From Candidatus Zhuqueibacterota bacterium (GTDB lineage Bacteria; Zhuqueibacterota; Zhuqueibacteria; Zhuqueibacterales; Geothermadaptataceae), in assembly GCA_030950365.1 (NCBI GenBank), contig JAUZRQ010000071.1:1-55089 (forward strand): a stretch of 55,089 nt of DNA, read 5' to 3'. The translations under genes were made by a program, and so were the position numbers. Positions 323 to 9,447 of the stretch are shown here, piece after piece. Below the pieces are notes generated by a model. It saw only the letters and a program-made list of their open reading frames with translations, was not told the origin of the DNA and did not search any database. The first letter of the stretch is position 1, and each line of letters starts with the position of its first letter.

Positions 323-364
323 TTGACTTTCAGCTGCATATTTTTTATTTTAATTGCTTATAAT
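323..364 (+). promoter_or_regulatory. Possible promoter of the M29 peptidase gene
   Basis: The 133-405 spacer is AT-rich and carries no convincing gene. TTGACT at 323-328 is followed after 17 bases by TATTTT at 346-351. A perfect TATAAT lies at 359-364 but has no well-spaced -35. Either could drive the gene starting at 406. This is pattern matching only. Confidence 0.3.
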
Positions 365-405
365 TGATTACAGCAACACGGAACCTCAACGGCGTGAGGG
401 GTACC

Positions 406-1521
406 ATGAAGGATCCAAGGCATCGGCAGCTCGCAGAGGTGCTTGTCACGCATTCGACCCGATTGCAGCCCGGCGAACGCGTGCTCATTGAGGCATTTGA
501 TATTCCTCACGATTTTGTCGTCGAACTGGTGCGGGCGGCAAAACGGCAGCAGGCCATTCCGTTCGTGCAAATCCGGCAGAACGAAGTCACCCGCGCCCTG
601 GTGGCATCGCTGCCCGAAGATGGCTTCCGCCAGTGGGGTCGTATGGACGCATTCATCATGGAGCAGATGCAAGCCTATATCGGCGTGCGCGGCAGCCACA
701 ATATCGCCGAATTTTCTGATGTTCCGGCCGAGCAAATGGGCTACTACAAAACCCATGTGATGAAACCAGTTCACTTTGATATCCGCGTGCCTCGCACCAA
801 GTGGGTCGTCCTGCGCTATCCCACGCATTCCATGGCGCAGCAGGCCGGTATGAGTTCGGAGTCGTTTGAAGATTTCTACTTCAAGGTATGCACGCTGGAT
901 TATTCGAAAATGACGCGCCCCATGCAGGTGCTGAAAGAATACATGGAAGCCACCGACCGGGTGCTCATCGTCGGGCCGAACACCGAGCTCGAGTTCAGCA
1001 TCAAAGGCATTCCGGCCATTCCCTGTGGCGGCGAGCACAACATTCCGGACGGCGAATGCTTCACCGCGCCGGTGCGCGACAGCGTCAATGGTCACATTCA
1101 ATTCAATACGCCCACGGTGTACGAGGGCACGATGTTCAATAATGTCCGGCTGGAGTTTCAAGACGGCCGCATTGTGAACGCCACGGCGGATAAAACCGAC
1201 CGGCTCAATCAGATTTTGAATACCGACGAAGGCGCCCGATACATCGGTGAGTTCGCCATCGGTTTTAATCCGCACATCACCCGACCAATGATGGATATCC
1301 TGTTCGATGAAAAAATGGCCGGAAGTTTCCACTTTACGCCGGGCCAGGCGTACGAAGAAGCCGACAACGGCAACCGGTCGAAAGTGCACTGGGACATGGT
1401 CATGCTGCAAACGCCGGAATACGGCGGCGGCGAAATCTATTTCGACGGCAAGCTAATCCGTAAGGATGGCCGCTTTGTTCCGGACGATTTGCAGGCACTG
1501 AATCCGGAACATTTGTTGTAG
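406..1521 (+). CDS. M29 family aminopeptidase (AmpS/AmpT/PepS type)
   Basis: A 371-residue cytoplasmic metallo-aminopeptidase, the usual length for peptidase family M29, which trims N-terminal residues from peptides with two metal ions. The five expected metal ligands are in order: E217 in DGECFTAP, E282 in YIGEFAIG, H309 in GSFHF, and H328 and D330 in the C-terminal VHWDMV motif. The ATG at 406 is chosen because GAGGGG lies just upstream and the family begins there; an in-frame TTG at 364 would add 14 unlikely residues. The selenoprotein gene follows 44 bases downstream in the same direction, so the two may share a transcript. Function is confident, substrate preference is not. Confidence 0.9.
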
Positions 1522-1565
1522 TTGTGAACGAGGATGAACATCCATTGACTGGAGGAGGGAATACC

Positions 1566-1793
1566 ATGAACGTATCCATCGAATACTGCGTGGTTTGAAA
1601 CTACGAACCCAGGGCCCTCAGTTTGAAGGCCGCGCTGGAGAACGCCTTTCCGGGCATCGAAGTCACCCTGATTCAGGGCTCGGGAGGCGTGTTTGAAGTC
1701 ATGCAGGATGACAAGCTGATTTTTTCCAAAAAACAACAGGGCCGTTTCCCGCAAGAATCCGAAATCATCGAAGCGCTGAAAAAATCGGCCTGA
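1566..1793 (+). CDS. SelW/Rdx-family selenoprotein, Sec encoded by in-frame UGA at 1596-1598
   Basis: Reading the TGA at 1596-1598 as selenocysteine gives a 75-residue protein that starts MNVSIEYCVV, then Sec11, then NYEPRALSLKAALENAFPG. The C8-V-V-U11 motif after a first beta strand is the CxxU redox motif of the SelW/SelT/Rdx thioredoxin-like fold. The rest also fits SelW: LK..LE..FPG.EV, GSGGVFEV, the KLIFSKK strand-turn, then GRFP and a terminal helix. A strong Shine-Dalgarno (GGAGGAGGG) sits 6 bases before the ATG, and reading continues to a TGA at 1791. Length and layout match bacterial SelW proteins of about 75-95 residues. The role is presumably thiol redox. A SECIS-like hairpin follows the UGA (separate entry). 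Ordinary gene callers would miss or truncate it. SelA/SelB/SelC are not in this window, so Sec insertion is inferred. Confidence 0.9.
1613..1631 (+). promoter_or_regulatory. Candidate bacterial SECIS hairpin
   Basis: Just after the UGA at 1596-1598 the RNA can fold GGCC (1613-1616) with GGCC (1628-1631). A C-A mismatch follows, then U-A and C-G pairs closing a five-base AGUUU loop at 1620-1624. The loop starts 21 bases after the UGA and carries a G in its second position, the spacing and loop feature expected for SelB-binding bacterial SECIS elements. Folding was done by eye. Confidence 0.65.
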
Positions 1794-1972
1794 TTTGACT
1801 GACCACCGGCGTGCGAAACCGGCACGCCGGGGTCATCGTTTTTGCCTGCACGCACGCATGCACCTGCATCCCAGACCCCGCATCACAACCGGTTTTAGAG
1901 GCCGGTGCGTTGCCGGAACGTTGCGCAACAATCCATATTGCCAATACAATACAACTGAATCTCATTTTGTCA

Positions 1973-2902
1973 ATGATACGACTCTACCTCACAGCTTCTG
2001 TTTTGATTTTGATGCCGCTCCTGGCCTGCAAAAGTCCAGAGCGCACGCCAGAAGGCCCCATCGATGGAAACGCCATGACAACCTACCTGCGACAACTCGA
2101 AGACAGCCTGAAGGCCGAGATCGCAGTGAGTTTTTACGATTTTGCCACCGGTCAGTATTTCGGCTACCGCGATACGGTGATGATGCATGCGGCCAGCACC
2201 ATGAAAGTGGCGGTGATGATCGAAGTGTTTCGCCAGGCCGAGGCCGGGGAATTTTCGATAGAGGATTCCATCCGCGTGAAAAACGAATTCCGCAGCATCG
2301 TTGATGGCAGCCCCTACACGCTGGAAGTCAGCGCCGATGGCGAAAAGACGCTGTATCACCGGCTTGGGCAGAAAGCCAGTATCCGTGAACTGCTGGAGCA
2401 GATGATTACCCGGAGCAGCAATCTGGCCACCAACCTGCTCATCGAAATGGTGGATGCGAAAAACGTGACGGCCACCATGCGTGAACTGGGCGCCGATCGC
2501 ATTCAGGTACTGCGCGGGGTGGAGGATATCAAAGCCTACGAGCGCGGCCTGAGCAACCGTACCAGCGCCCACGATCTGACGATGATTCTGCGCGCTATCG
2601 TGGAGAACCGGGCCGCATCGCCGAAAAGCTGTCAGGAGATGCTGGACGTCCTGAAGCGGCAGCAGTGGCGCAGAAAGATTCCCACCGGCGTGCCCGAAGG
2701 CGTACCGGTGGCCAACAAAACCGGCTCCATCACCCGCATCGATCACGATTGCGCGGTCATCTTTCCACCCGACCGGAAGCCGTATGTCCTGGTGGTGCTG
2801 ACGCACGGTATCGAAAAGCACGATAAGGCCAGTGAAACCATTGCGGCGATTTCCAGGTATGTCTGGCAGGCTGTTGCCGCAACCAATCGAAGCCCAAACT
2901 AA
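1973..2902 (+). CDS. Class A beta-lactamase-fold serine hydrolase, lipoprotein
   Basis: A 309-residue protein with a lipoprotein signal (hydrophobic stretch ending LLAC) followed by a penicillin-binding/class A beta-lactamase fold (Beta-lactamase2 family). Motif 1 is S75-T-M-K78 (SxxK nucleophile and lysine), motif 2 is S148-S-N150 in place of the classical SDN, and motif 3 is K249-T-G251 followed by S. The omega-loop glutamate of true class A beta-lactamases cannot be assigned with confidence; E residues lie in the RGVEDIKAYERG segment. It is more safely called a serine hydrolase of this fold, acting in the periplasm or outer envelope, than a resistance enzyme. The start at 1973 is chosen for the signal peptide; the open frame extends upstream to 1811 without a plausible start. 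The next gene starts 11 bases downstream. Confidence 0.8.
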   Translation: MIRLYLTASVLILMPLLACKSPERTPEGPIDGNAMTTYLRQLEDSLKAEIAVSFYDFATGQYFGYRDTVMMHAASTMKVAVMIEVFRQAEAGEFSIEDSIRVKNEFRSIVDGSPYTLEVSADGEKTLYHRLGQKASIRELLEQMITRSSNLATNLLIEMVDAKNVTATMRELGADRIQVLRGVEDIKAYERGLSNRTSAHDLTMILRAIVENRAASPKSCQEMLDVLKRQQWRRKIPTGVPEGVPVANKTGSITRIDHDCAVIFPPDRKPYVLVVLTHGIEKHDKASETIAAISRYVWQAVAATNRSPN

Positions 2903-2913
2903 ACCGGCAGCTT

Positions 2914-4161
2914 ATGAGGACTGGAGCACCCTCGCGCATGATCTTCCGCTATCGTGGCTACCGACTCTGGCGATCCCTTCCGGTTGCAGTTTTGCTGGCC
3001 GCGGCGTGGCTGTTCGCCTGCGGCCAGGATACCTTCCGCGTCGAGCTGCAGTTCAAAGACGTGGCCTCCGGACGCAGCCTGCCCTATGCTGTTCCGCATC
3101 CGCTCGATTTCTTTCCGGTGGATTCGTTCGGCGTGAGCTTCACCCTGCCCGAAGTGCAGGCCGCCGTACCCTTGGCCGGCCAGCTTTTGCTCGGCAATAC
3201 CAAACAGCCCATCTATTTGCTGCTTGACAAATCCCGTCCCCGAAGCCTGTATTACGACCGCCTGTACATTGACTTGAACAAAGACCGCAATTTCAATAAC
3301 GACGGTCCGCCGTACACCACCCAGGGCCGGTTCATCAAAAACCGCAACCGCCATTATGTGGAGTTCGAACACGTGGCGATTCCGTACGAATGGCAACTGG
3401 ATGGCGAGATGACCGAAGAGCCGTTTCTGGGCAAGATCTATTTCTGGTATTCCGACAAGGGCCAACCAACCATGGCGCGCATCGTCCGCGAAGGCTGGCG
3501 AGAGGGCGTATTTACCTTCCGGAATCAGCCGGCGGTGGTGGTGCTGTCGGATGACGACTGCAACGGCATCTACGACCGCAACGACCGCTGGGCGCTGGTG
3601 CCGGAAGACAGCCTGGGCGAGCGGTTCGTGGCCGGGCTGCACTGGTTCCGCAACGTCACCCGGCTGGGCTGGATCGGCAACACCGCGTTCGAGATCGCCG
3701 AGCTGTCGCCACGCGGCGATTACGTGATTCTGCAGATCAAACCGGTCAACTGGACGCGCGAGGAAGATTTTGCGCGGGACAACCCCTATGCCGAAGAGCC
3801 GCGCCGGCCGCGCGCCGCACGGTCGATTTCATGGCTGAGCGATTTCAACGAAGCGCTCAAAAAGGCCCGGCGCTTTAAAAAGCCGGTACTGGTTGATTTT
3901 TATACCGACTGGTGCGGGCCGTGTAAGGTCATGGAGCAGCGCACCTATACCGATGCCGAGGTGGTGCAGCTCAGCGACCAATTCGTCTGCGTGAAAATCA
4001 ACGGCGATCTCCACCGCAACCTGGTGAAGCGGTTCAACATTCACAGCTATCCAACATTGCTGTTGCTCGATTCACGCGGACGCGAGCAATCGCGCATCAT
4101 CGGTTACCAGCCAGCGACGGTGCTGGTGGGCTTTTTGCGCGACGCGCTGCCGAAAAAATAG
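2914..4161 (+). CDS. Exported thioredoxin-domain lipoprotein with Asp-rich Ca-binding-like loops
   Basis: A 415-residue protein in two parts. The N-terminus has a signal ending LFAC (lipobox), then a beta-rich region of about 270 residues with two acidic loops that resemble calcium-binding repeats: DLNKDRNFNNDG near residue 124 and DDDCNGIYDRNDRW near residue 212. The C-terminal 110 residues are a thioredoxin fold with the active site W-C334-G-P-C337-K, the following PTLLLLDSRG strand containing the cis-proline, and a final helix. It probably acts as an envelope thiol-disulfide oxidoreductase. ATG 2938 (ninth codon) is an equally good start. It lies 11 bases after the serine hydrolase gene, so the two are probably co-transcribed. 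The N-terminal region is not a family I recognise. Confidence 0.75.
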   Translation: MRTGAPSRMIFRYRGYRLWRSLPVAVLLAAAWLFACGQDTFRVELQFKDVASGRSLPYAVPHPLDFFPVDSFGVSFTLPEVQAAVPLAGQLLLGNTKQPIYLLLDKSRPRSLYYDRLYIDLNKDRNFNNDGPPYTTQGRFIKNRNRHYVEFEHVAIPYEWQLDGEMTEEPFLGKIYFWYSDKGQPTMARIVREGWREGVFTFRNQPAVVVLSDDDCNGIYDRNDRWALVPEDSLGERFVAGLHWFRNVTRLGWIGNTAFEIAELSPRGDYVILQIKPVNWTREEDFARDNPYAEEPRRPRAARSISWLSDFNEALKKARRFKKPVLVDFYTDWCGPCKVMEQRTYTDAEVVQLSDQFVCVKINGDLHRNLVKRFNIHSYPTLLLLDSRGREQSRIIGYQPATVLVGFLRDALPKK

Positions 4162-6963: not shown

Positions 6964-7296
6964 ATGCATTATTATGAATCCGAGGATTTGAAGCGGTTTT
7001 CCGAAGTAGGCAAATTCCGTGGTGAACTCATGAAAAAATTCTTTGAATACTACAACAAAGTCACCGGCGAAGACGGCGCGCTGACCAAACGCGAAAAGGC
7101 GCTCATCGCCCTGGCCGTGGCGCACTCGCGTCAGTGCCCGTACTGCATCGACGCGTACACCACCGCCTGCCTGGAAGCCGGCGCCGATCCCGATCAGATG
7201 ACCGAAGCCATCCACGTGGCGGCGGCCATGGAAGCCGGCATCACCCTCATTCATGCCGTGCAAATGCACAACGTCCTCGATCGCTATGGCGCGTGA
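6964..7296 (+). CDS. AhpD/carboxymuconolactone decarboxylase-like protein linked to ArsS
   Basis: A 110-residue all-helical protein of the alkylhydroperoxidase D fold. The active-site motif is QC58-P-Y-C61-I-D-A-Y-T, with the A-H-S/R and downstream His context (E-A-I-H-V-A-A-A) that AhpD-like proteins use for thiol-peroxidase or disulfide chemistry. Small peroxidase-like proteins of this type travel with arsenosugar radical SAM genes, and in some genomes the first Cys is selenocysteine; here both positions are Cys. AAGGAGG lies 7 bases before the ATG. It is the first gene of a tight plus-strand cluster with ArsS 50 bases downstream. Its exact reaction in the arsenic pathway is not established. 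Confidence 0.82.
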   Translation: MHYYESEDLKRFSEVGKFRGELMKKFFEYYNKVTGEDGALTKREKALIALAVAHSRQCPYCIDAYTTACLEAGADPDQMTEAIHVAAAMEAGITLIHAVQMHNVLDRYGA

Positions 7297-7346
7297 GAAT
7301 TCCCATGATGAACCCCGATTTTCCCAACAATGGAGGAGTGGCTTTT

Positions 7347-8375
7347 ATGCAAACCTTACCTGTCCTGGAATCTTCCCTGAATCCTGAGGAGGAGGCCCGG
7401 TACAATTTTGACGACTTTCTCGCCCGACGCGGCATTGAACTGCCGCCCCTGACCATCGAAACCCTGCAGGTGAACATCACCCGGATGTGCAATCAGGCCT
7501 GCACGCACTGCCACGTGGATGCCTCGCCCAAACGCACCGAGCAAATGAGCCGCGAGGCCGTGGATCGCTGTCTCGAGATTCTGGCCGAGCACGAGAGCAT
7601 CCAGAATCTCGACATCACTGGCGGCGCGCCCGAGCTGAATCCGCATTTCGATTACATGGTGGTTGAAGCAAAAAAGCTGGGCAAGCACGTGATGGTGCGC
7701 CACAACCTGACGGTGACGTTCGATGGCCATCCGCAGACCGGCGAAAGCAAACGCTATCTGCCTGACTTTTTTGCCGAGAATCAGGTCGAGGTGATTTCGT
7801 CCCTGCCCTATTATCAGGAATACTTCACCGATCGCCAGCGCGGCCGCGGCGTCTTTCAGAAGAGCATCGACAGTCTGCGGCTGCTGAATGAGAAGGGCTA
7901 CGGCCATGACGGTACCGGCCTGTTGCTCAATCTGGTGTACAATCCGGCGGGCGCCTTTTTGCCGGCGCCGCAGGCCAATCTCGAGGCCGATTTCAAGCAC
8001 GAGCTAAAGAACCGCTTCGGCATCGTGTTCAACAGTTTGTTCACCATCACCAACATGCCCATCCACCGCTTCAAGGAAATGCTGTACCGCAAAAACATTT
8101 ACGATGACTACATGGAGAAGCTCACCAGCAATTTCAATCCGTGTGCGGCGGAGGGCGTGATGTGCCGCTCGCTGATCAGCGTGGGCTACGACGGCCGGCT
8201 GTACGATTGCGATTTCAACCAGATGCTGGACATGCAGATCGAAAACGGCAAGCCCATGACGATTTTCAATTTCGATTTCGATCAACTCATGCAGCGCAAA
8301 ATTCGCTTTGCCTCGCACTGTTTTGGATGCACGGCCGGCGCGGGCAGCAGTTGCGGCGGCGCCACGGCCGGATAG
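7347..8375 (+). CDS. arsS: Arsenosugar biosynthesis radical SAM protein ArsS
   Basis: A 342-residue radical SAM enzyme. The 4Fe-4S/SAM motif is M-C48-NQA-C52-TH-C55, followed by the GGE-equivalent strand DITGGAPELNPHF. The C-terminus has the Cys-rich signature of the family: CAAEGVMCRSL, DCDFNQML and the end CFGCTAGAGSSCGG. In the ArsS / 'radical SAM-Cys-rich' family one of these C-terminal positions is often selenocysteine; this copy uses Cys throughout and ends at a TAG. The family is linked to adding the 5'-deoxyadenosyl group of SAM to dimethylarsinic acid, giving arsenosugar precursors. The start at 7347 is chosen for GGAGGAG just upstream and the usual protein length. ArsM follows 28 bases later. 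Confidence 0.88.
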   Translation: MQTLPVLESSLNPEEEARYNFDDFLARRGIELPPLTIETLQVNITRMCNQACTHCHVDASPKRTEQMSREAVDRCLEILAEHESIQNLDITGGAPELNPHFDYMVVEAKKLGKHVMVRHNLTVTFDGHPQTGESKRYLPDFFAENQVEVISSLPYYQEYFTDRQRGRGVFQKSIDSLRLLNEKGYGHDGTGLLLNLVYNPAGAFLPAPQANLEADFKHELKNRFGIVFNSLFTITNMPIHRFKEMLYRKNIYDDYMEKLTSNFNPCAAEGVMCRSLISVGYDGRLYDCDFNQMLDMQIENGKPMTIFNFDFDQLMQRKIRFASHCFGCTAGAGSSCGGATAG

Positions 8376-8403
8376 ATTAAATCTGTCACATGGAGGAACA
8401 AAT

Positions 8404-9447
8404 ATGAACACAAACCAGACTCTGGAAGCAGTCAAAGAGTACTATGGCAAACGCCTGAATGGCAAACAGGATCTTAAAACCAGCGCCTGCTGCAGTACCG
8501 ATTCCCTGCCCGATTATCAGAAAAAGGTGCTGGCCCGGATCGACGATGAAATTTTAACCAAATTTTACGGCTGCGGCTCTCCCATTCCGCCGCTGCTGGA
8601 AAAATGCACCGTGCTCGATCTTGGCTGCGGCACCGGCCGCGATGTGTATCTCGCCTCGTATTTCGTCGGGCCGCACGGGCTGGTGATCGGCGTGGACATG
8701 ACCGAGGAGCAACTGGCCGTGGCCCGCAAGCATATCGACCGCCAAATGCGCGAATTTGCTTTCGATCGCCCAAACGTCTCGTTCCGGCACGGCTACATCG
8801 AAGACCTGCGCTCGCTGGACATCCCCGACAATTCTGTAGATGTGGTTATCTCCAACTGCGTTATCAACCTATCGCCAGACAAGCGCGCCGTGTTTTCGGA
8901 AATTTTCCGTGTCCTCAAACCCGGCGGCGAGCTGTATTTCGCCGATGTCTTTGCCGGACGCCGGGTGCCGGAAGCGATTAAAGACGACCCAATGCTGTAT
9001 GGCGAATGTCTGGCCGGCGCTATGTACATTGAGGATTTTCGCCGATTGCTGCGCGATCTAAGCGTCCTGGATTACCGTGTGGTGTCCAAATGTCCGATCA
9101 ATATCGATGACCCGGAGGTCAATGCCAAAACCGGCAACATCGATTTCTATTCGATGACCATTCGAGCATTCAAGCTGGATTCGCTCGAGGATATTTGCGA
9201 GGATTACGGCCAGGTTGCGATTTACCGCGGCACAATTCCGGAGCATCCGCACCGGTTCGAGCTGGACGACCACCATGTGTTCGAAACTGGCCGGCCGGTG
9301 CTGGTGTGCGGCAATACGGCGGCCATGCTGCAGGAAACCCGCTACGGCGCGCATTTCGAGATCATCGGCGACCGCTCCATGCATTACGGCCCGTTCGATT
9401 GCAGCAGCGGTTCCCCGTCGACCGAAAGCACCAGTTCCTGCTGCTGA
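8404..9447 (+). CDS. arsM: Arsenite SAM methyltransferase ArsM
   Basis: A 347-residue class I methyltransferase that methylates As(III) using S-adenosylmethionine. The SAM-binding loop is VLDLGCGTGRDVY (residues 70-82). The As(III)-binding cysteines known from characterised ArsM enzymes appear at the expected places: C29/C30 in SACCS, C57 in YGCGSP, C152 in SNCVINLSP and C202 in YGECLAGA. The C-terminal domain is longer than the catalytic core requires and ends in a Cys-rich tail (FDCSSGSP...SSCC) that could bind arsenic. GGAGGA precedes the ATG. With ArsS upstream this predicts production of methylated arsenic and arsenosugars in the cytoplasm. Confidence 0.92.
   Translation: MNTNQTLEAVKEYYGKRLNGKQDLKTSACCSTDSLPDYQKKVLARIDDEILTKFYGCGSPIPPLLEKCTVLDLGCGTGRDVYLASYFVGPHGLVIGVDMTEEQLAVARKHIDRQMREFAFDRPNVSFRHGYIEDLRSLDIPDNSVDVVISNCVINLSPDKRAVFSEIFRVLKPGGELYFADVFAGRRVPEAIKDDPMLYGECLAGAMYIEDFRRLLRDLSVLDYRVVSKCPINIDDPEVNAKTGNIDFYSMTIRAFKLDSLEDICEDYGQVAIYRGTIPEHPHRFELDDHHVFETGRPVLVCGNTAAMLQETRYGAHFEIIGDRSMHYGPFDCSSGSPSTESTSSCC

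Follow-up and report, generated by a model that had tools for sequence, protein, structure and literature searches.

The question raised by this locus is whether the UGA triplet at 1596-1598, the eleventh codon of a reading frame that opens with ATG at 1566, ends translation or is read as selenocysteine (Sec). The window, by which we mean the whole stretch of 55,089 nucleotides that was analysed, is contig 106 of a draft genome (4.98 Mb, 136 contigs, 95% complete) assigned to Candidatus Zhuqueibacterota. By the standard code, the sole open reading frame at the locus is one of 56 aa starting from TTG 1623. When the frame is read past TGA 1596-1598, it stays open as far as the stop TGA at 1791-1793 and yields the product MNVSIEYCVVUNYEPRALSLKAALENAFPGIEVTLIQGSGGVFEVMQDDKLIFSKKQQGRFPQESEIIEALKKSA. 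The sequence-only reading had described a strong Shine-Dalgarno sequence, the ATG and a CVV-UGA motif at codons 8-11, followed by an uninterrupted frame to 1791, and all of these elements were found where they had been placed, giving a read-through product of 75 aa (Table 1). Purine-rich ribosome-binding sites are also present upstream of most of the selW homologues. The gene had further been called hidden from standard gene callers, which is fair, although SelW proteins and their recoding are well established; pipelines that end open reading frames at UGA would truncate or miss selW. Overall, we consider the locus to be a selW-type selenoprotein gene in which the UGA is read as Sec by way of a downstream hairpin, with a probability of about 0.96.

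Table 1. Location of selW, its signals, its neighbours and the Sec-decoding genes. Plain positions refer to the window; C6 and C136 are other contigs of the same genome, and L022 and L023 are extracted loci.
Feature	Location	Strand	Evidence or remark
M29-family aminopeptidase	364..1521	+	Peptidase_M29 E 1.5e-52; ends 44 bases upstream of selW
Shine-Dalgarno GGAGGAGGG	1551..1559	+	6 bases upstream of ATG 1566, from sequence
selW-like selenoprotein gene	1566..1793	+	translation, 75 aa, stop TGA 1791-1793
CxxU redox motif TGC GTG GTT TGA (Cys8-Val-Val-Sec11)	1587..1598	+	Cys8 and TGA11 in 26/26 homologues
UGA codon read as selenocysteine (probable)	1596..1598	+	TGA kept in homologues and GTDB scan loci
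Bacterial SECIS-like hairpin	1613..1631	+	core-helix covariation, frozen codons in loop and stem
Beta-lactamase-like serine hydrolase	1811..2902	+	Beta-lactamase2 E 7.4e-57; downstream of selW
Thioredoxin-domain protein	2914-4161		next after hydrolase; common at least within same family
tRNA-Sec (selC)	C6:84828-84922 (L022:16828-16924)		Rfam 68.8 bits; ARAGORN tRNA-SeC, anticodon TCA
selB	C6:76758-78617		324 bits
selD	C136:893-1816 (L023:791-1906)		380 bits

The SelW/Rdx-like identity proposed for the product was borne out by profiles, homologues and a fold model. The protein matched Pfam Rdx (PF10262) with E = 1e-23 and 83.8 bits against a cut-off of 22.6, SelW residues 2-72 aligning to profile positions 1-73 of 74, that is, over its whole length. 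It also scored 104 bits against a cut-off of 88 for NCBIfam NF041051 (SelTWH), exceeded the cut-off of TIGR02174 (CXXU_selWTH), and matched solved SelW-family proteins by sequence. An AlphaFold model, computed with Sec entered as Cys and with a 20-sequence alignment, had a pLDDT of 89.9 and showed the thioredoxin-like SelW fold, in which C8-V-V-U11 directly follows the strand of residues 2-8. The top PDB matches of this model were all SelW-related and came from Agrobacterium, Vibrio, Pseudomonas and Streptomyces, with mouse SelW less close (TM 0.78); the bacterial structures 2fa8, 2ojl, 2obk, 2p0g and 3dex share the fold (TM 0.88-0.95, rmsd ~1 Å) at merely 25-36% identity in the structural alignment. 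A redox role of SelW through CxxU is the accepted guess, and the product, with its Cys-x-x-Sec active site, most probably serves as a small thiol/selenol redox protein of the cytoplasm, its redox role being presumed.

Homologues were searched for in 40 whole genomes (the own genome and 39 relatives), and selW was present in 26 of them. In every one of these 26 (own plus 25 relatives), at identities down to 44%, a TGA stands exactly at codon 11, indicating that the frame does not exist by chance. Around it, I5, C8 and A17 are invariant and Y7 is almost invariant. A scan of GTDB gave the same codon in 11 of 11 loci, three of which (L057-L059) apparently repeat genes from the relatives above; among the records of these loci are some labelled Planctomycetota, SAR86, Deltaproteobacteria, Hydrogenedentota and Rubrobacter. 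The selW copy in the sister genome, which belongs to the same genus, is 93% identical to that of the window; 24 codons differ synonymously and 4 with a change of amino acid. These observations bear on the possibility that the UGA truly ends translation or has arisen as a mutation that breaks the frame, leaving either a pseudogene or a protein made only of the part after the UGA from the later start TTG 1623. Such a reading would agree with the 56-aa frame, which is all that the standard code yields, with the absence of selA from the own assembly, and with the fact that read-through is deduced from sequence; however, it conflicts with the TGA kept in all 26 homologues between conserved residues on either side, with the predominance of synonymous changes towards the sister, and with the ribosome-binding site ahead of ATG 1566, and we regard it as very improbable. 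Relatives whose frame ends at this position and that have no Cys or Sec counterpart had been named beforehand as an argument against a selenoprotein, and what was found contradicts it, all 26 homologues reading through codon 11.

The hairpin downstream of the UGA is formed by arms at 1613-1619 (GGCCCUC) and 1625-1631 (GAAGGCC), with one C-A mismatch in the stem, and is closed by an AGUUU loop at 1620-1624. In the bacterial SECIS model, the apical loop has 3-9 nt and, in one of its first two positions, a G that often precedes G or U, the spacing from the UGA being 16-37 nt (PMC13188914). The hairpin agrees with this model in each respect, in line with the SECIS-like element that had been proposed, its loop carrying G at position 2 and then U and lying 21 nt past the UGA. 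The sequence-only reading had let the whole hairpin start 21 bases after the UGA, which is correct for the AGUUU loop but not for the stem, which begins at ~1613, 14 bases after the UGA.

RNA folding, which had been proposed as a check, gave a divided answer: the folding energy of the single sequence was no better than that of shuffles (z = -0.54), whereas covariation was evident in the comparison of homologues, and the case for the hairpin therefore rests on comparative evidence. In the core helix of 5 pairs, 83.1% of cells were paired, against 69.9 ± 1.8 in shuffles, and the covariation score was 0.377, against 0.149 ± 0.024; 0 of 500 shuffles attained the observed pairing or covariation, in a test in which some effect of relatedness remains. 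Sliding the partner arm, a control subject to the same restriction, abolished the covariation signal. One pair occurs as C-G, U-A, A-U and G-C across the homologues, and the helix predicted by RNAalifold without guidance has four of the core pairs in common. Codon usage within the hairpin was also found to be fixed: loop codon 19 is AGT wherever it encodes Ser (20 sequences), although AGT makes up only 7% of the Ser codons of the window, and codon 18 is always TCC for Ser (13 sequences) and CTC for Leu (7 sequences). Between window and sister, synonymous differences were seen in 0 of 8 codons over the hairpin (codons 17-24) and in 24 of 63 elsewhere (Fisher p = 0.045, for a region picked post hoc), which is only suggestive of constraint. 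Taken together, the comparative data lend strong support to the predicted SECIS hairpin.

Genes for tRNA-Sec, SelB and SelD were identified in the own genome (Table 1). The selD gene has an in-frame TGA of its own, in ...VSCAGUASKIGPGDL..., at its known Sec site, and the genome thus has at least two selenoprotein genes. An altered genetic code, in which UGA would be an ordinary residue genome-wide and position 11 would be something other than Sec, is in keeping with the apparent translation of the UGA in selW; nevertheless, TGA serves as the stop codon of 7 of the 28 main genes of the window and of selW itself, the other in-frame TGA met is that of selD at its known Sec site, and the genome has a dedicated tRNA-Sec as well as SelB, alongside a conserved hairpin, so that we consider an altered code extremely improbable.

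The selA gene gave no match in the own draft assembly (95% complete), while 35 of the 40 genomes, including the sister, had a selA match above the cut-off. In the sister, selA sits between a serB-like gene and groEL, both named by eye from their translations. Neither the sister selA with its surrounding 4.4 kb nor any other part of its 18-kb contig, serB and groEL included, had an orthologous match in the own draft, in which just weak paralogue matches were obtained, for example to a response-regulator gene at ~70%. Since groEL, which is taken as essential, is also without a match and the draft consists of 136 contigs, the absence of selA is likely to reflect an assembly gap and not a loss. 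If selA had been lost in this species, a gene of the Sec type would be translated with Cys instead or not at all; this is what the unmatched selA and its 4.4-kb surroundings could mean, but the equally unmatched remainder of the 18-kb contig fits a gap in the draft, and tRNA-Sec, selB, a Sec-type selD and the SECIS hairpin are all intact, which makes such a loss highly unlikely. The sequence-only reading had implied that the organism inserts Sec and had made this depend on selA, selB and selC. It is backed by selB, selC and selD in the genome, and the absence of selA does not speak against it, being seen only in a 95%-complete draft from which the entire region around the sister's selA is missing.

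In the established pathway, SelB on a SECIS hairpin delivers Sec-tRNA at UGA. In this organism, the ribosome would start at ATG 1566, SelB on the hairpin at 1613-1631 would bring selenocysteyl-tRNA-Sec to the UGA at 1596-1598 in place of chain termination, and elongation would continue to 1791, giving a 75-residue protein of thioredoxin-like fold with Cys-x-x-Sec. From sequence evidence we infer that Sec is inserted at codon 11 in this organism.

Matches to tRNA-Sec above the Rfam cut-off were obtained in 27 of the 40 genomes, the own genome included, at a cut-off that admits some tRNA-Ser, since second, weaker RF01852 matches in two relatives (L094, G008:C27:7400-7780; L095, G016:C55:20470-20850) are tRNA-Ser (CGA) by ARAGORN. 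A second match in another relative (L096, G036:C67:20340-20720; 53.7 bits) had no ARAGORN call at the settings used, and its reverse strand reads GACTTCAAACC, like the anticodon arm of tRNA-Sec. In the own genome, contig 111 carries at ~3021-3111 (L003:1500-1590) a 91-base copy of selC that is 98% identical and lacks the 5' acceptor strand. This copy was rejected as a second tRNA-Sec gene because it is truncated and ARAGORN does not call a tRNA there; it resembles a partial duplication or the remnant of an integration site, and inspection by eye of the nearby ORFs of 150 aa or more revealed no integrase.

The presence of selC differs from an earlier genome survey of KSB1, in which selA, selB and selD were reported and selC was absent, and in which ORFs were predicted by Prodigal and annotated by KEGG (PMC9012183). 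A tRNA gene would not show up in such protein annotation, and selC was therefore probably missed. We found tRNA-Sec in the own KSB1-like genome and in the relatives counted above, in a set of genomes that is not matched one by one to that of the survey, and for genomes bearing tRNA-Sec a selC-independent route need not be invoked. With the present locus, the uncultured KSB1/Calditrichota lineage gains a well-supported selenoprotein together with its SECIS element and most of its machinery.

As shown in Table 1, selW lies between genes for an M29-family aminopeptidase and a beta-lactamase-like serine hydrolase, the true start of the latter being probably further in, near 1974. In the same family and order, most selW loci are bordered by homologues of both, and in the closest relatives the thioredoxin-domain protein follows. 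It is conceivable, though in our judgement unlikely, that the order aminopeptidase, SelW, hydrolase marks a functional unit in KSB1/Calditrichota in which SelW has a defined partner that it acts on or repairs; if true, this would provide a handle on the role of bacterial SelW.

Elsewhere in the window, an Rfam scan of the whole stretch gave no matches, no tRNA genes were found, and the TGA read-through frames outside the main genes came to six short candidates, none of which resembled a known protein by eye. An arsenosugar-type cluster at 6964-9447, also present in the sister genome, encodes a peroxidase-like protein (TIGR04169), a radical SAM ArsS (TIGR04167) and a methyltransferase-domain protein. 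The genes at 6964-8375 are from families that include selenoproteins; ArsS was rejected as a selenoprotein, its frame being without an in-frame TGA here, in the sister and in one further relative (G002).

Both SelW selenoproteins and the SECIS elements of bacteria belong to textbook knowledge, and in eukaryotic SelW the SECIS lies in the 3'-UTR, unlike the bacterial element within the gene. Mammalian Selenoprotein W and MIEN1 (C17orf37) share the fold of the present protein (TM 0.78-0.80 by query) at a sequence identity of ~34-37% in the structural alignment. SelW-like proteins formed the most abundant selenoprotein family of the Sargasso Sea data, with 48 genes, and their function was called unclear (PMC1088965). 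SelW-like genes have been described in Geobacter, Desulfotalea, Symbiobacterium and others, Cys forms being few or lacking among bacteria that use Sec (PMC1794560), and read-through of Campylobacter SelW was demonstrated by ribosome profiling and proteomics (PMC11955535). Because SelW-like selenoproteins are already widespread in bacteria, the gene described here is not a new kind but a further SelW selenoprotein, of a kind well known in bacteria and animals. With the prokaryotic SelW-like proteins, including that of Campylobacter jejuni, it shares its length (75-81 aa), the N-terminal CxxU, the UGA-coded Sec and a SECIS directly downstream of the UGA within the gene; against this common plan, only the host lineage and the M29/beta-lactamase-like neighbourhood, the neighbours having been compared within the family and order, stand out.
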